This document shows, piece after piece, positions 5,935 to 25,194 of a DNA stretch of 41,165 nt. The notes below the pieces were generated by a model. It did not search any database. It had not been told where the DNA came from and saw nothing but the letters and a program-made list of their open reading frames with translations. The position numbers were made by a program, and so were the translations under genes. Origin of the DNA: a bacterium. Lineage in GTDB: Bacteria > UBP6 > JAFGXH01. Numbering within the stretch: position 1 is the stretch's first letter; each line of letters begins with the position of its first letter. The stretch covers positions 1 through 41,165 of the forward strand of contig JAMOQH010000104.1 of the NCBI GenBank assembly GCA_027064085.1, written 5' to 3'.

Positions 5935-7521
5935 TTATAAACAACTCTTAATAAATGCAGAAAATAATGGATGTGCAGAAAATGGTTTAGATTTGAACTC
6001 GGGGTGAAATTGTGATGCAATGAAAAACGGGTGGTTACTAAGCTCTATTATTTCCACTAAGTTTCCTGATGGAGATATTCCCGAAATAATTAATCCCTTT
6101 TCTTCTAATAGCTCTTTATACTTATTGTTAAATTCGTATCTATGCCTATGTCTTTCTGATATTTTGCTTGAATTATAAATTGAACTTGCTAGGCTATCTT
6201 CTAGTAAAACGGTATCATAAGCGCCCAATCTCATAGTTGCCCCCATAGTTTCAACTTTTTTCTGTTCTAACATTAAATCAATTACAGGATTTTCACAATC
6301 ATCTTTAAACTCACTACTATTTACATCTTTAAGTTTTGCGATATTTCTTGCAAATTCAATAACTGCAATTTGCATACCAAGACAAATGCCTAAAAATGGA
6401 ATTTTATTAACTCTTGCGTATTCTACTGCTTTTATCTTTCCCTCAACTCCTCTATGCCCAAATCCTCCAGGAACTAAAATGCCATCTACATTATTAAAAA
6501 ATTTAGCAACATCTTTACTCTTTTCTAGCTCTTCTGAATCAATGTATTTTAAGTTAACTTTAGATGAATTTTCTATTCCTGCATGAGTAAGTGCTTCATT
6601 TAAGCTTTTGTAAGACTCTGTTAGGTCAACATATTTACCAACTATGGCTATAGTTTTGTTAAATTTAGGATTTTCTATGTTTTCTACTATTTTATACCAT
6701 ATTTGAAGTTTAGGAGGAAGAGTATCAAGCCTAAAAATATTTAATATTTTAGAATCTAAGCCTTGTTTATATAAAATTAATGGAAGTTTATATATAGTAT
6801 TTGCATCTAAGGCTGTAATCACTCTATCAAAAGCTACATTGCAAAATAAAGATATTTTTTTTCTAACTTCATCGGGAATTTCTCTTTCTGCTCTGCAAAC
6901 TAATATGTCTGCCTGAATCCCAATTTGCATTAATTGTCTAACAGAATTTTGAGTAGGTTTAGTTTTGAGCTCATCTGCTGCTTTTAAATAAGGAACAAGA
7001 GTCATGTGTATTGATAATGCTCTTTCAGGGCCTAATTCCATTTTTAATTGTCTGACTGCTTCTAAAAAAGGTAGAGATTCTATATCTCCAACTGTACCGC
7101 CTATTTCTATAATAACTATGTCGTAATTTGCCGTATTACCAAGTATTCTGTTTTTTATTTCATCTGTAATATGAGGAATTACTTGTACCGTTTTCCCTAA
7201 ATATTCTCCTTTTCTTTCTCTTTCTATAACAGAGTAATACACTTGACCTGATGTAAAATTATTGTTTTTATTCATATTTGCATGGGTAAATCTTTCATAA
7301 TGGCCTAAATCTAGGTCTGTTTCTGTTCCATCGTCTGTTACAAAAACTTCACCGTGCTGAAAAGGACTCATTGTGCCGGGGTCAATGTTGATATAAGGGT
7401 CAAGTTTCATTATTGTAACATTTAATCCTCTTGCTTCTAAAAGTGCAGCAATTGAAGCACTAGTTAAACCCTTTCCTAATGATGAAACAACTCCACCCGT
7501 CATAAATATATATTTTGTCAT
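5935..7521 (-). CDS. pyrG: CTP synthase
   Basis: A 528-residue enzyme that aminates UTP to CTP with ATP, using glutamine-derived ammonia. The N-terminal synthetase domain begins with [17 protein letters not shown] (ATP loop) and contains [19 protein letters not shown]. The C-terminal class I glutamine amidotransferase has the nucleophile C380 in GICLGMQ and the His-Glu pair in SQFHPEF near the end. Length is close to that of the E. coli enzyme. GGAG precedes the ATG, and a near-consensus promoter lies 62-90 bases upstream. The gene appears monocistronic and converges on the helicase gene. Confidence 0.97.
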
Positions 7522-8546: not shown

Positions 8547-9605
8547 TTAATTATCTTTAATATTTAACTCTTTTTTTAAATCTTTGATTTTTTCTACAGG
8601 TAAATCTGTTATCCTTGAAATAAAAGCGATATCAACGCCTTCATTTAACATTTTAATTGCTGTTTCTATTTTACCTTCTATTTTACCCTTTTCTATTCCT
8701 TTTTCTATTCCTTTTTCTATTCCTTTTTCTATTCCTTTCTCTATTCCTTTCTCTATTCCTTTCTCTATTCCTTTCTCTATTCCTTTCTCTATTCCTTTTT
8801 TTTCTCCTCTTTCTTCAATTTCATTAATCAATCTCATCATTCCACCCATTTTATCCTCCTTATTTAAAGTTTTTAGAGCTTCTTTAATATCTATTCTATC
8901 ACTTGATATTAATTTAACAAATTTATTGATTTTATCAAGCATTATTAATTCTTTTTCTTTGTCATAACCTGATAATATCTGCTTTATTTTTAATACTATT
9001 TCATCTAAATCTTCTTGATTAATTTCTTTATTATCAGTTGCTAAAATATTACTTAATAAATTATCTATCATTTTTAAGTCTTTTAAACTCTTTTCATTTA
9101 ACATTATTTTATAGATATCAAATTTAGCTATATAATTTATTGCATTATTAAATGGTTGTTCTATTAATTTAGTTAAATCAAATTCAAAATTCCACTTAGT
9201 TTCTCCTATATAAAATAATATAGGCAAAATAAATGGTAATTTTTTATCTTTATCATTCTTATTTCTATTTTTTAATATATCAATATGTAATAAACTATCA
9301 TAAATCAAAAATCTAAAAGGCATTTTTCTATCGGGTATTGATTGAAATTCTATGTGAATATAAAAATAAATTTTATTAGCTTTAAGTTTAACGCTCCAAA
9401 GTAAATCTTTCCTAAATTCTTTTAAGTCTTCTGATAAAAAATCTGTTTTTTCCTTTTTTAATGTTCTAAAATCTATATTTCTAACCCAATCTTCATCTAT
9501 AAAACCAGTTATTAATTGTTTCATTAATGTTTTATTATCTAAAAGCTCTTTTAAGATTTTATCATAACGGTTCTCTATTTTATTTTTATCCTTATTTTCT
9601 ACCAT
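8547..9605 (-). CDS. Rpn-family PD-(D/E)XK nuclease with KGIE repeats
   Basis: A 352-residue member of the Rpn (RpnA-E, transposase_31/PD-(D/E)XK) family, RecA-independent recombination-promoting DNases. The nuclease core shows D67 (RKDLLW) and the E86-x-Q88 signature (HIEFQS), followed by the family stretch LPFILPILFYIG (123-134). The C-terminal part holds nine tandem KGIE tetrapeptides, likely a long charged helix. It ends in a short segment (EGVDIAFISRITDLPVEKI) typical of Rpn proteins. GGAGG precedes the ATG and a good promoter lies at 9622-9650. These genes often occur as expanded paralogue families in AT-rich genomes. No transposon ends are seen around it. Confidence 0.88.
   Translation of the reverse strand: MVENKDKNKIENRYDKILKELLDNKTLMKQLITGFIDEDWVRNIDFRTLKKEKTDFLSEDLKEFRKDLLWSVKLKANKIYFYIHIEFQSIPDRKMPFRFLIYDSLLHIDILKNRNKNDKDKKLPFILPILFYIGETKWNFEFDLTKLIEQPFNNAINYIAKFDIYKIMLNEKSLKDLKMIDNLLSNILATDNKEINQEDLDEIVLKIKQILSGYDKEKELIMLDKINKFVKLISSDRIDIKEALKTLNKEDKMGGMMRLINEIEERGEKKGIEKGIEKGIEKGIEKGIEKGIEKGIEKGIEKGIEKGKIEGKIETAIKMLNEGVDIAFISRITDLPVEKIKDLKKELNIKDN
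8689..8800 (-). repeat. 12-bp coding minisatellite (nine units, KGIE)
   Basis: CTATTCC recurs every 12 bases from 8693 to 8795, nine times, giving nine KGIE tetrapeptides in the Rpn protein. The units come in two blocks: the end nearer 8690 has TTTTT before CTATTCC, and the end nearer 8800 has TTTCT. They differ by one silent Glu codon change (GAA/GAG). This pattern implies recent expansion by slippage or unequal exchange. Confidence 0.95.
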
Positions 9606-20230: not shown

Positions 20231-21544
20231 ATGAATTTTGCTGTTATTTCAGATACTCATCTTGGAGACAAGGATTGTGGACTTGTTATAAAAAATAAAA
20301 ATAAAGATAAATATGAATTAGGTAAATTTTATGAATATTTTTATAAAGGGATGAAAGCAAGTTGTGATTACATGATATTGCTTGGAGATACTTTTGATTT
20401 TGCAATTGAGGATTATAGTGATGCTTATGAAGCAGGAAAAGTGTTTTTAAATAAAGTTGTCGAAGATGGTTTTGTAAGAAAAGGTTTTATTTATATTCCA
20501 GGGAATCATGATTTTAATCTATGGCCATTAATAGAATATGAGGCAAATATTATTAATAGGTTAAAAGATGGACAAAAAGTAAGAAAATTTCAAAACTCTT
20601 TACCTGCAATTATTGATGCAAGAAGCGGGAATGCTAAGTTTTCACTTTATGGAGTAAAACCTCATGAAAATAATGGTAATTATGAGTATGGAGGAATGTA
20701 TTTAGATAATTTAATTGATAAAAAGGAGATTACATTTAATATCGCATATCCCAATTTATATCTTTTTACTAAAAAAGAAACGGTATTATTCACTCATGGG
20801 CACTATCTTGATACTTATTGGTCTTTGTTTTCTAATTATGCTGGAGAGTTGACTAAAAAAATTAATAAAAATGAATCTCCTGATTTTATATCTCTTGATG
20901 TAAATAATATGTCTGAAATGGTTGATATAAATCTCCCCCTTAATCAACTTGCTTCATCTGGGGTTGGTCAATCTGGAAAACTTGGGAAAATTGTAAATAA
21001 AGTTGAGCATAATCTAAAGAATAATAAAATAGGAAGAGTAGATGTTTATATAATAAATTTATTTAGATTATTAGAAAATAGTATCTTAAAAAGTTGGCCT
21101 GATCTTTTAAGAAAATTACTTTTTAAAATGCTTAAGAAAAAATCTATTGAAGCTATAACTGAAGTTTTTAATAATTATAACACTCCACGGGATAATAAGG
21201 CATTTTTGAAAGAAAATATCAAGAGATTAGAAAAGTTTTATAATTTAACAGTGAAAGAATTAAAAAGTTTAAAGTTTTCAGATGATGAAAATAAGTATTT
21301 AGAGTATCAGTTGGAGAAAGAATATATAGAACCTAATAAAATAATATATGGTCATACTCATGTTCCTAGAGGTTGTGGTGAATCAGAAGTTATAAAAATT
21401 AATAATAAAAAAATTTATACATATAATTTAGGTGGTTGGTTATCAAAGGATAAAAAGAATTGGAGAGGTGCAGAAATATTTTTTATCAATGATAAAGGAG
21501 AGTTATCTTCTGAAAGAGTTAAGGAAAGAGGTTGTAATACTTGA
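20231..21544 (+). CDS. Calcineurin-like metallophosphoesterase
   Basis: A 437-residue cytosolic phosphoesterase with the two-metal site of the family: D8-x-H10 (SDTHLGD), D53 (LLGDTFDF), N92-H93-D94 (PGNHD), H in FTHGHYLD (near 195) and GHTHVPRG near 380. A long insert (about 215-350), rich in Lys and helix-forming residues, separates the last two metal motifs. It is larger than UDP-diacylglucosamine hydrolases such as LpxH. The substrate is unknown. AGAGGG precedes the ATG. The 3' end contains the promoter of the next operon. Confidence 0.88.
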   Translation: MNFAVISDTHLGDKDCGLVIKNKNKDKYELGKFYEYFYKGMKASCDYMILLGDTFDFAIEDYSDAYEAGKVFLNKVVEDGFVRKGFIYIPGNHDFNLWPLIEYEANIINRLKDGQKVRKFQNSLPAIIDARSGNAKFSLYGVKPHENNGNYEYGGMYLDNLIDKKEITFNIAYPNLYLFTKKETVLFTHGHYLDTYWSLFSNYAGELTKKINKNESPDFISLDVNNMSEMVDINLPLNQLASSGVGQSGKLGKIVNKVEHNLKNNKIGRVDVYIINLFRLLENSILKSWPDLLRKLLFKMLKKKSIEAITEVFNNYNTPRDNKAFLKENIKRLEKFYNLTVKELKSLKFSDDENKYLEYQLEKEYIEPNKIIYGHTHVPRGCGESEVIKINNKKIYTYNLGGWLSKDKKNWRGAEIFFINDKGELSSERVKERGCNT

Positions 21545-21569
21545 CACGATGCGTCAATTAAGTTATATT
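21541..21569 (+). promoter_or_regulatory. Promoter of the DUF4442-PhaR-ArsA operon
   Basis: A perfect TTGACA (21541-21546), 17 bases, then TATATT (21564-21569). The -35 element overlaps the TGA stop of the metallophosphoesterase gene. It lies 27 bases before the ATG of the next gene. Confidence 0.65.
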
Positions 21570-21596
21570 GAATTGTTGATTCTATTAAGGAGGATT

Positions 21597-22067
21597 ATGC
21601 TTGATATTAAAACAGTTTATAACAAATTGTCAATACTGCCCGAAAAAGTAAAAAATAAAGCTTTTAGTAAAGTTATGGGAATTGTAATTCCGTTTTCTGC
21701 AAAATCTAAATTTGATATAGAAAAATTAAAAGAGGGATATATGAGGGTTTCTATACCTTATATTAAATCTAATATGAATCATATCAGAACTCATCATGCT
21801 CTTGCGATGAGTGAGCTAGGAGAACTTGCAACAGGAGTTTGTTTAGCTTATTCTTTACCTAAAAATAGTCAGGTTATTTTAAAAAGCTTAAGTACCGAAT
21901 ATTTAAAAAAAGGAAAAGGTAAGTTAACTGTTGAAGCAGAGTTTAATTTAAGTGATATAAAAGATAGGGGTGATGTTGTTTTTGATGTTGAAATTAAAAA
22001 TAAATCAAAGGAAACTGTGGCAAAAGCTCAGTATATTTGGCATTATAGAATAAATTTTAAGAAATAA
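21597..22067 (+). CDS. DUF4442 hotdog-fold protein (thioesterase-like)
   Basis: A 156-residue protein of the DUF4442 family in the hotdog superfamily, which includes acyl-CoA thioesterases. The family features are PFSAKSKFDIEKLKEGYMRV near the start, then NMNHIRTHHALAMSELGELATG (about 53-74; the region equivalent to the hotdog catalytic helix), and ILKSLSTEYLKKGKGKL. It may act on an acyl-CoA or simply bind one. The ATG at 21597 follows AAGGAGG. It is first in an operon: the PhaR-like gene starts one base after its stop. Confidence 0.82.
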   Translation: MLDIKTVYNKLSILPEKVKNKAFSKVMGIVIPFSAKSKFDIEKLKEGYMRVSIPYIKSNMNHIRTHHALAMSELGELATGVCLAYSLPKNSQVILKSLSTEYLKKGKGKLTVEAEFNLSDIKDRGDVVFDVEIKNKSKETVAKAQYIWHYRINFKK

Positions 22068-22068
22068 T

Positions 22069-22632
22069 ATGATATTAATAAAAAGATATACAAATAGAAA
22101 GTTATATGATACTGAAAATAGCAAATATGTAACTATTTCAGATATTATTAAATTGATTCAAAATAATAAAGAAATAAAAGTAATAGAAAATAATACACAA
22201 GAAGATATTACAAATGTAATTATGGCTCAAGTATTATTAAAAATAGAACAAAAAGAAAATTCTAGAAAAACAGATGCCTCCAAAAAAGGCATAAAGGCAC
22301 TGATTCAGAATTCTGGAGATTCTTTAAGTAATTATATCAATAAAACAAAATATACAATAAAAAATGAAGTTGATAAAATTATAAAAAAAGGTGAAACTGA
22401 ATTAAATGATTTAGCAAAACAGTTTCAACAGTTTTACGATTCTTCTACTACTGTAGTTGAAAATATCCCTAAAAGAATAGATGAAAAGGTAAAAGAGTCA
22501 ATTAATACTTTATTTCCTGTTCAAAGAATAAAAGAATTTGATAATTTAGTTAAAAAAGTTGATAATTTAGAAAAAAAAGTTAAAATTCTTGAAGAGAGGC
22601 TGTTGGAGTTTGATAAAGATGAACAAAAATAA
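22069..22632 (+). CDS. PHA synthesis regulator PhaR-like protein
   Basis: A 187-residue protein. Residues 3-60 form the PHB/PHA accumulation regulator DNA-binding domain with the signature IKRYTNRKLYDTENSKYVTI. The rest (about 80-187) is a long charged region, likely coiled coil, with heptad-like VKKVDNLEKKVKILEERL near the end, as in phasin-like or granule-associated proteins. In known systems PhaR represses PHA genes and binds PHA granules. No PHA synthase is in this window. The ATG is one base after the DUF4442 stop, and the end overlaps the first ArsA gene by 14 bases. Regulation of PHA is inferred from the domain only. Confidence 0.82.
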   Translation: MILIKRYTNRKLYDTENSKYVTISDIIKLIQNNKEIKVIENNTQEDITNVIMAQVLLKIEQKENSRKTDASKKGIKALIQNSGDSLSNYINKTKYTIKNEVDKIIKKGETELNDLAKQFQQFYDSSTTVVENIPKRIDEKVKESINTLFPVQRIKEFDNLVKKVDNLEKKVKILEERLLEFDKDEQK

Positions 22633-23551
22633 GGAGCTTTTTAATAAAAGAGTTATTGTTGTAACGGGAAAGGGCGGTGTAGGTAAGACGACAGTTTCTA
22701 CTGTAATTGCAATAGCTGCTAAGAAATTAGGTAAAAAAGTATTAATTTGCGAAGTTAATACAAAAGAAAAGATTGCTCCTGCTTTAGGTTATAAAGAGTC
22801 AAATGGAATTGTTCAAGAAATTGAAAATAATTTATCTACAGTAAATATTATCCCTAATAAAGCAATGGAAGAATATGGTCTTATGATATTAAAATCAAAA
22901 TTTATTTATAATACTGTTTTTAATAATAAATATGTAAAGAAATTTTTATCTGCAATACCTGGACTTTCTGAAATTCTAATTTGGGGTAAAATAAGATTTC
23001 ATGAGCAAGAAAAATTAAAAAATGGGCAAAATAAGTATGATATTATTATTGTGGATGCTCCTGCAACAGGGCATGGTATTTCTTTTTTGAAATTGCCTAT
23101 CGCAATATTATCAATTCTCCAAAAAGGGGCTTTAGCCAAAGAAGGAAAAGAGCTTTATGTTTTGCTTACAGATGAAACTAAAACTAGTATTAATATTGTT
23201 ACCATTCCCGAAGAGTTGCCCGTGAATGAAGCAAGAGAATTAGTAGATGTTGTGAAAAAAGAGCTAGCTATGCCATTAGGTAATTTATTTATTAATTCTA
23301 ATGTAGGTAAATTATTTTCTTCTCAAGAATTATCCTTATATAAAACTTTAAAAAATCTTGATGGTGATAGTGTTAATATTTTAAAAAAAGCTACCAATTA
23401 TAGGCTAAATAGAGAAAAGTTAAATCAAAAATATATTAAAATAGCTATTGATCATATTGATTTACCTTCAGTAATTTTTCCGTATTTATTCGTTGAAAAA
23501 TTTGAAAGAAAGGATTTTGAATATTTGGCTGATATTTTACTTAAAAATTAA
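22619..23551 (+). CDS. ArsA/Get3-like ATPase (first of pair)
   Basis: A 310-residue SIMIBI-class ATPase of the ArsA family. It has the deviant Walker A GKGGVGKT (17-24), a Walker B/switch region IIIVDAPATGHG, and the family motif TIPEELPVNEA, where Get3/ArsA proteins have E/P-rich switch residues. It is followed by an overall similar paralogue. The known cysteines that bind arsenite in ArsA are not evident. ATG 22619 lies inside the 3' end of the PhaR-like gene (14-base overlap), with GGAG upstream. Bacterial pairs of this type are often annotated as anion-transporting ATPases, but arsenic resistance genes are absent here. Confidence 0.85.
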   Translation: MNKNKELFNKRVIVVTGKGGVGKTTVSTVIAIAAKKLGKKVLICEVNTKEKIAPALGYKESNGIVQEIENNLSTVNIIPNKAMEEYGLMILKSKFIYNTVFNNKYVKKFLSAIPGLSEILIWGKIRFHEQEKLKNGQNKYDIIIVDAPATGHGISFLKLPIAILSILQKGALAKEGKELYVLLTDETKTSINIVTIPEELPVNEARELVDVVKKELAMPLGNLFINSNVGKLFSSQELSLYKTLKNLDGDSVNILKKATNYRLNREKLNQKYIKIAIDHIDLPSVIFPYLFVEKFERKDFEYLADILLKN

Positions 23552-23558
23552 GGGAAAT

Positions 23559-24695
23559 ATGGAAAACTTTAAAACTTTAATAGAAAATTCTAAAATCATT
23601 GTATCAGTTGGTAGTGGTGGCGTTGGAAAGACTACTGTTTCTGCCTCAATTGCATTACAAGCCGCTATAAATGGTAAAAAAACAGTAGTTTTAACTATAG
23701 ATCCTGCTAAAAGGTTGGCAAATTCACTAGGTATTGAAAAGCTAACAAATGAAATACAAAAAATCGATTTAACTCTTTTAACTGAAGTAAAACCTAAAGG
23801 AGAGTTGTATGCAATGATGCTTGATATGAAAACAGCAATGGATGACATGGTAGATAGAGAATCTAGCTCTGAGGATAATAAGAAAACTATTTTTGATAAT
23901 AAAATTTACCAAATTTTTTCAACTTCTTTGTCTGGAACTCAGGATTTTGCAGCAATGGAGAAACTTTGGGATATCTATAATAGTAAAAAATATGATTTAA
24001 TTGTTTTAGATACTCCTCCAACAAGTAATGCGCTAGATTTTTTAACTTTTCCACAAAGAATTTTTGATACTTTTGATAACAAAATTACAAAATTAATGAT
24101 ATCAATGTATCAAAATTCTGGCTCTTTTGCTTTTAAATTTTTTGGATTAGGTACCCAAGTAATATTAAAAGGGATAGGTAAATTTGTAGGAACTGAAACT
24201 TTAGAAATATTATCTTCATTTTTATTTCATATATCGGATTTAATAGAAGGGATGAAGTCTAGAAGTATAGATGTTTTTAACTTATTAAGAAGTAAGGAAG
24301 TGAATTTTGTAGTTATAACAGCTCCTACTCCTGTTTCAATAAAAGAGGCTTTATTCTTTAAAGATGAATTAAAAAGGTTTAATCTTAACTTTAGTGGTTT
24401 TATCGTTAATAGGTATCATAACAAATTTATAGATTTTGATGAAAAAATAGATAAAAATGGAGTTTTAAATAAAATAAAAAATAAAGAAAGTTTTGAAAAT
24501 ATATCAGAATATAAAATTGAGAAATTAATAAGTAAGTTGATCGATAATTTAGAAAAATTTAGTAAGTTAACATCAATAGAAGATAAGCACCTTGAGTTAT
24601 TGAAATCTTATCCTTTTATAAAAATACCTTTTTTTGAGCATGATATATATAATTTAAATGGATTGATAAAAATTTCAAAAGAAATTTTTAAATAG
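23559..24695 (+). CDS. ArsA/Get3-like ATPase (second of pair)
   Basis: A 378-residue paralogue of the preceding ATPase with Walker A GSGGVGKT (18-25), LTIDPAKRLANSLG (switch I type), LIVLDTPPTSNALDFL and VVITAPTPVSIKEA. It is longer, with a Lys-rich C-terminal extension (about 280-378). AGGG precedes the ATG, seven bases after the previous stop. The two probably form a heterodimer, as the two halves of ArsA do. Possible roles are membrane-protein or tail-anchor targeting, or a lipid-linked process. Its last eight bases overlap the convergent gene at 24688. Confidence 0.85.
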   Translation: MENFKTLIENSKIIVSVGSGGVGKTTVSASIALQAAINGKKTVVLTIDPAKRLANSLGIEKLTNEIQKIDLTLLTEVKPKGELYAMMLDMKTAMDDMVDRESSSEDNKKTIFDNKIYQIFSTSLSGTQDFAAMEKLWDIYNSKKYDLIVLDTPPTSNALDFLTFPQRIFDTFDNKITKLMISMYQNSGSFAFKFFGLGTQVILKGIGKFVGTETLEILSSFLFHISDLIEGMKSRSIDVFNLLRSKEVNFVVITAPTPVSIKEALFFKDELKRFNLNFSGFIVNRYHNKFIDFDEKIDKNGVLNKIKNKESFENISEYKIEKLISKLIDNLEKFSKLTSIEDKHLELLKSYPFIKIPFFEHDIYNLNGLIKISKEIFK

Positions 24696-25194
24696 TATGA
24701 TTATCTATAAAATTATCTATTAAATTTAATGCCTTGTTGAACAATTCTTCGTAATGAGTTTCTGTTTTATCAAAAAATTGAGCCATATAAATAACTATTT
24801 CTTCTATGTTGTGTTCTAGTCTTTTGGGTTTTATGGGTTCTTTTCTATCTGATAAGCTAAAATACATATAAAAATTTTCTGCAATTGTTTGTTGGTACAT
24901 ATAATAGGAAGCCGTTGTTTCAATTGTTGAGTCTTTTGATGTGTAAATATATTCAAAACCCCTTCTTGAATTAAAATCCCCATAAAATAATACATACTGA
25001 ATTTCATTTCCCTTTATTTGTTTCATTTCTTTTTTTTCTTGTGATACTTCAATATTTGTTAGTTCTTTATATAGATATTTCAAAAATTTTATTAATTCCT
25101 CTCTCTTAATATCTATATTTAACTTCTTGAAATTATATGTTACAAATTGAAAAGTCTCATGTTTTTTTATTATTGCATCTTTTAATATAGGCAA
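24688..25194 (-). CDS. Uncharacterised protein (168 aa)
   Basis: A 168-residue soluble protein I do not recognise. It is rich in Lys, Glu, Tyr and Phe, with no signal peptide or membrane segment. It has a charged helical N-terminal half (1-60), then a Tyr-rich stretch (about 66-110: YVLFYGDF, FEYIYTSK, YYMYQQT), then a helical tail. The start codon is TTG, with a full AAAGGAG six bases upstream, which makes the start convincing. The 3' end overlaps the second ArsA gene by eight bases in convergent orientation. No role is proposed. Confidence 0.65.
   Translation of the reverse strand: MPILKDAIIKKHETFQFVTYNFKKLNIDIKREELIKFLKYLYKELTNIEVSQEKKEMKQIKGNEIQYVLFYGDFNSRRGFEYIYTSKDSTIETTASYYMYQQTIAENFYMYFSLSDRKEPIKPKRLEHNIEEIVIYMAQFFDKTETHYEELFNKALNLIDNFIDNHTI

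Follow-up and report, generated by a model that had tools for sequence, protein, structure and literature searches.

We found that a four-gene operon from a bacterium of the UBP6 lineage (JAFGXH01) encodes, together with a DUF4442 protein and a PhaR-like protein, two ATPases whose sequences mark them as a BagA/BagB-like pair in the broad sense, a pair already known and crystallised from Mycobacterium tuberculosis, and that a PhaR-like gene lies beside bagAB in three phyla. The association of the two is frequent, not obligatory, and is apparently undescribed. No report of a PhaR-like/ArsA-like operon was found in the open-licence literature, and this negative evidence is hence weak; a 2010 survey that covered ArsA homologues and the operons they belong to mentions neither PHB nor phasin (PMC2963123). 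The PhaR-like protein is not PhaR but a PHB_acc_N domain with a phasin-like helical coil tail. The reading that we prefer, and hold tentatively, is that BagA-BagB acts as a Get3-like targeting ATPase with this phasin-like coiled-coil protein as its partner at a hydrophobic surface. The stretch analysed, called the window below, is the whole of the 41,165-nt contig JAMOQH010000104.1 (assembly GCA_027064085.1), and operon positions are given on its plus strand.

The open-reading frames, spacings and families of the four contiguous genes (DUF4442, PhaR-like and two ArsA-like ATPases) agree with the original prediction from this DNA, the genes being joined in the sequence by a 1-base gap, a 14-base overlap and a 7-base gap (Table 1). 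The candidate for the single strong promoter claimed for them is TTGACA-17-TATATT, the sole 11/12 match on the plus strand of a 7-kb stretch. The probability of a random 11/12 match in the 56 bases 5′ of the DUF4442 gene is ~0.2%, and promoter-like sites as a class show no enrichment (54 observed vs 48.6 expected). The match ends 27 bases before the DUF4442 start codon and its −35 lies inside the final codons of a metallophosphoesterase gene (20231-21544), so that read-through from that gene may also occur. On the 3′ side, the operon is followed by one opposite-strand gene and then by nusG, ribosomal protein and rpoBC genes. In the interval from bagB to nusG, a minus-strand ORF of 168 aa (24688-25194) had no family match. 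Elsewhere in the window (8547-9605) is a protein with a GIEKGIEKGIEKG repeat run near its C-terminus, by eye of the Rpn/PD-(D/E)XK type.

Table 1 Features of the operon in the window
Feature	Position	Strand	Basis or remark
Promoter-like TTGACA-17-TATATT	21541..21569	+	11/12, consensus match only
Inverted repeat TTGAC-N7-GTCAA over operon −35, candidate operator	21541..21557	.	Sequence inspection
Ribosome-binding site AAGGAGG	21587..21593	+	3 bases 5′ of ATG 21597; sequence inspection
DUF4442 hotdog-fold protein, 156 aa	21597..22067	+	PF14539; PDB 1yoc match
PhaR-like coiled-coil protein, 187 aa	22069..22632	+	PF07879; predicted model
BagA-like (Rv3679-like) Get3-family ATPase, 310 aa	22619..23551	+	PF02374; 6bs3_A
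BagB-like (Rv3680-like) Get3-family ATPase, 378 aa	23559..24695	+	PF02374; 6bs3_B

The PhaR-like protein matches PF07879 (PHB_acc_N) over residues 3-62 at 75.9 bits, against a cut-off of 25, with a further match to Phasin PF05597 that falls under its cut-off (25.1 vs 28.8 bits, E 2e-5). The predicted model has a mixed N-domain followed by helices at 86-148 and 151-186, and a fold search with it gave no significant match. The protein misses the PhaR cut-off (TIGR01848, 61.8 vs 109.45 bits) and is placed apart from the PhaC-linked clade. A tree built from 35 PHB_acc_N domains unites the PhaC-linked Myxococcota copies in a single clade (support 99/97) and groups the window protein, outside that clade, with its two relatives (100/99), the motifs being KRYxNRKLYDT...NxT in the PhaR-like proteins vs KKYxNRRLYD...DAK in the PhaC-linked ones. 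PHA synthase, predicted to be missing, was indeed not detected, with no PF07167 match in the window, in the whole assembly (94.7% complete), or in G001 and G002, the nearest relatives from the same family (the three assemblies are 82-95% complete). Identity with PhaR was rejected because the cut-off is missed, the clade is separate, and no PhaC was found in the genome or the family; the absence of PF07167 and the separate clade also exclude the explanation that would have undone the original prediction, a phaC/phasin locus accounting for the regulator.

The same data bear on an alternative that we consider unlikely, namely that the PhaR-like protein regulates its own operon by binding DNA, perhaps together with genes for surface proteins, and that BagAB is simply a pair under this control; binding to a lipid surface would then free the protein from DNA, as PHB frees PhaR. 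PhaR binds DNA through its PHB_acc_N domain and the inverted repeat TTGAC-N7-GTCAA spans the operon −35, but the domain is unlike that of PhaC-linked PhaR in both clade and motif, and the published PhaR site CTGCNNNGCAG (PMC12542648) was not found anywhere in the window. A shorter TGC-N3-GCA match is present once, at 6889, well away from the operon.

Linkage of the PhaR-like gene to bagAB was followed across genomes. Among 107 Myxococcota, BagB-like matches are nearly universal and PHB_acc_N proteins occur in 102, and a PHB_acc_N gene lies ≤10 kb from bagB in 73 of the 107 genomes (10 families), within-family repeats in these counts being explained by shared descent. By rough arithmetic, the chance of such proximity is ~0.4% per genome (two bagB genes, 9-Mb genome). 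Fourteen other PHB_acc_N copies in Myxococcota are near PhaC, and none is near both PhaC and bagB. In several Myxococcota families, a PHB_acc_N gene without Bag linkage adjoins mltG (and yqgF) (L170-L172, L180). A zinc-ribbon protein is among the other bagB neighbours conserved within Myxococcota, but of the low-copy bag neighbours the PhaR-like gene alone recurs outside the phylum. It is also found beside bagAB in two Desulfobacteraceae, so the linkage crosses phyla: the gene order at one locus (L093) is PhaR-like, phasin, BagA, BagB, and at another (L146, 3235-10738) it is patatin, an amphipathic-repeat protein, a degenerate PHB_acc_N, BagA, BagB, WS/DGAT and a second PHB_acc_N. In a separate set of 61 genomes, which covered the window's phylum along with many others, PhaR-like proteins occurred in 8, BagB in 7 and both in 6 (p 3e-6, or p 1.6e-4 with the window's own family counted once). 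One genome (G047) has BagAB without a PhaR-like gene and another (G060) the reverse, and all 25 sampled members of the phylum outside the window's family lack PHB_acc_N, DUF4442 and a strong BagB match.

Two further arrangements were observed at these and related loci. In myxobacteria (L034 7563-11590, L082, L090-L092, L094 and L100), the PhaR-like gene is separated from bagA by a divergent ParA and a phasin-like gene. Elsewhere (G051, L040 4803-7387), PHB_acc_N and phasin-like genes adjoin a gene for a Get3d-like ATPase that carries an HSP20 domain; this pairing was set aside, as it did not recur in either of two genomes from that phylum.

The four-gene set as a whole was rejected as a conserved unit, since in G001 and G002 the adjacent DUF4442-PhaR genes, bagA and bagB occupy three separate loci. 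Directly 5′ of bagB in these two relatives is a gene of 159-162 codons (L031 13314-13793, L032 9725-10213), SCP2-like by eye and with no Pfam match. The DUF4442 protein itself is a clear member of its family (PF14539, 96.7 bits vs cut-off 25), with matches to PDB 1yoc (E 3e-11) and the SP_1851 thioesterase (E 1.5e-4) and a score below the cut-off of TIGR00369 (26.8 vs 36.6 bits). Its gene is beside the Bag pair at none of 80 other loci and, being linked in the window's own family only, is a local addition. Synteny, one of the checks proposed for the original prediction, therefore upholds the PhaR-like gene and the ATPase pair, which are co-conserved well beyond this genome, and does not uphold DUF4442. 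The three loci of the nearest relatives and the distance of DUF4442 from Bag genes elsewhere would fit an operon with no functional unity, in which independently useful genes are packed between the metallophosphoesterase gene and nusG-ribosomal protein-rpoBC. We assign this explanation a low probability, as it has to contend with the 14 bases by which the PhaR-like gene overlaps bagA and with a PhaR-like-bagAB linkage that recurs across three phyla and in several parts of the PhaR-like tree.

The two ATPases score 99.4 and 104.3 bits, first and second, against PF02374 (cut-off 24.3). The top PDB match of the first is Rv3679 (6bs3_A, E 6.4e-24) and that of the second is Rv3680 (6bs3_B, E 3.8e-57), and both are closer to Rv3679/Rv3680, a complex with the PDB title 'bacterial Get3-like A and B' and the NCBIfam names BagA and BagB, than to Get3, ArsA or MinD. 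In a fold search, an AlphaFold2 model of BagB (mean pLDDT 85.7) retrieved 6bs3_B first and Get3 structures next. The mycobacterial equivalogs NF053622 and NF053621 were missed (119.4 and 285.4 bits vs cut-offs of 400 and 521), and the NF053621 cut-off is passed by no Myxococcota genome either (n = 107). A check of BagB for a hydrophobic client groove showed a slight enrichment of hydrophobic residues, 44% vs 37%.

Residues of the Get3 active site are divided between the two proteins. BagA keeps the deviant Walker signature Lys in its P-loop GKGGVGKTT and has Asn47 at the Get3 switch-I Asp position; BagB has the P-loop GSGGVGKTT without the signature Lys and keeps switch-I Asp48 in TIDPAKRLA. 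Some loci of the BagB scan had been found via P-loop or switch motifs, and those found by overall similarity were tallied separately. In the similarity-found loci, BagA is Lys+/Asp-Pro− in 10/10 cases with a recognised P-loop and BagB is Asp-Pro+/Lys− in 12/12, and at the 80 motif-found loci the split holds in 69/69 BagA and 79/80 BagB proteins. The M. tuberculosis pair is split in the same way. ATPases of the Get3 class use the signature lysine of one subunit on the nucleotide bound by the other. With the lysine acting in trans and the residues split in this manner, one complete composite site is predicted, in BagB, and we infer a one-site ATPase cycle for BagA-BagB. Get3 D57N, the counterpart of the BagA Asn, was solved ATP-bound, according to its PDB title (9ns5).

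In M. tuberculosis, bagAB has been assigned a part in protecting against nitric oxide and against the toxicity of glycerol metabolism (PMC10597346), and in M. tuberculosis and M. smegmatis it has been tied also to citrate killing and streptomycin survival (PMC10597346, PMC12216072). The link to glycerol and nitric oxide toxicity, and not to client delivery, counts against targeting and in favor of a stress chaperone, in which BagAB would act in the cytosol as a holdase, keeping hydrophobic proteins during carbon or nitrosative stress, and the coil would be a co-chaperone that needs no lipid surface; this is improbable, as the linkage to phasin-like proteins would be left unexplained. A positioning system, in which the coiled coil and MinD/ParA-type ATPases set the cellular location of an inclusion or complex, would account for the ParA and phasin-like genes of the myxobacterial clusters, but neither the window cluster nor the Desulfobacteraceae loci contain a ParA and BagA/B are far closer to Get3-type proteins than to ParA/MinD, making this explanation very improbable. 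An arsenic or other anion pump is hardly credible despite the name 'anion-transporting ATPase' borne by PF02374, as these single-domain proteins score 66.1 and 55.3 bits against the ArsA equivalog TIGR04291 (cut-off 650) and match BagA/BagB best. No arsenic genes were seen among the ORFs examined, and the earlier judgement that neither an arsenic nor a PHA role fits is borne out by the cut-offs, the genome content and the tree.

Under the targeting reading that we prefer, BagA and BagB would pair via the Get3 dimer face, and ATP would be hydrolysed at a single composite site formed by the BagB pocket, BagB Asp48 and the signature Lys of BagA in trans, while the BagA pocket, with Asn for Asp and no Lys from BagB, would bind nucleotide without turnover. 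This cycle would open and close a hydrophobic surface that holds lipid-surface proteins or clients with an amphipathic segment or tail anchor. The PHB_acc_N-phasin protein would serve as a partner on a membrane or neutral-lipid inclusion, or as a client adaptor, and not as a PHA repressor, and DUF4442 would be a lineage-specific companion with a putative role in handling acyl-thioesters.

A lipid or membrane-surface link of the operon is plausible. Lipid-type neighbours include WS/DGAT and patatin (L146), lipase (L105, G051), a weak SCP2 match (G051) and DUF4442 in the window, a list drawn up without a control set, lipases and patatins being common genes in general. Myxobacteria are known to make triacylglycerol lipid bodies (PMC4048283). 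WS/DGAT occurs in 52/73 bagB-linked Myxococcota genomes vs 4/34 others and, counted by family, in 3/10 linked vs 3/18 others; this signal, strong by genome and weak by family, was taken as phylogenetic confounding, and WS/DGAT was rejected as a general partner. Neither WS/DGAT nor PhaC is found in the window's family (3 genomes). The original prediction of an undescribed lipid- or granule-linked targeting system is thus retained in part: the lipid or membrane-surface link is plausible, and the ATPases are the known BagA/BagB. A bolder version, which we regard as doubtful, is that of a widespread bacterial pathway for bringing proteins to membranes or neutral-lipid inclusions, driven by a Get3-like heterodimer that has a single composite ATPase site and with the PHB_acc_N-phasin protein as the surface receptor. 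If true, Myxococcota, Desulfobacterota and relatives would have a counterpart of GET that serves lipid surfaces.

As a conserved neighbour that encodes a phasin-type coil, the PhaR-like gene is a concrete candidate for the working partner of BagA/BagB. The idea is directly testable in the myxobacteria, which are non-pathogenic and genetically tractable. The residue split predicts an asymmetric, one-site ATPase. Many 'PHA synthesis regulator' annotations in PhaC-less bacteria are probably something else.

Compared with known systems, the window ATPases share the Pfam family PF02374 with ArsA, but ArsA consists of two fused ATPase halves whereas these are single-domain proteins with no arsenic gene seen nearby. 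With Get3/TRC40, which targets tail-anchored proteins, they have the ATPase fold and the P-loop/switch layout in common, and differ in being unlike subunits with one predicted active site, in lacking the CxxC motif in both proteins, and in missing TIGR00345 (89.9 and 102.7 bits vs cut-off 135). The PhaR-like protein has the PHB_acc_N domain of PhaR, the PHA synthesis repressor, and is set apart by NRKLYDT and NNT/DNxT type motifs in place of NRRLYD and DAK, a phasin-like coil tail, a separate clade and no detectable PhaC. The DUF4442 protein shares family membership, far above the cut-off, with hotdog proteins such as PA1835 (PDB 1yoc), with no difference noted. The best sequence and fold match of the window pair is M. 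tuberculosis BagA/BagB (Rv3679-Rv3680; PDB 6BS3-6BS5), a known heterodimer (6BS3) whose genes are likewise adjacent, in identical order and with the identical Lys/Asp split, and from which the window pair differs in sharing its operon with a PHB_acc_N-phasin gene and DUF4442.
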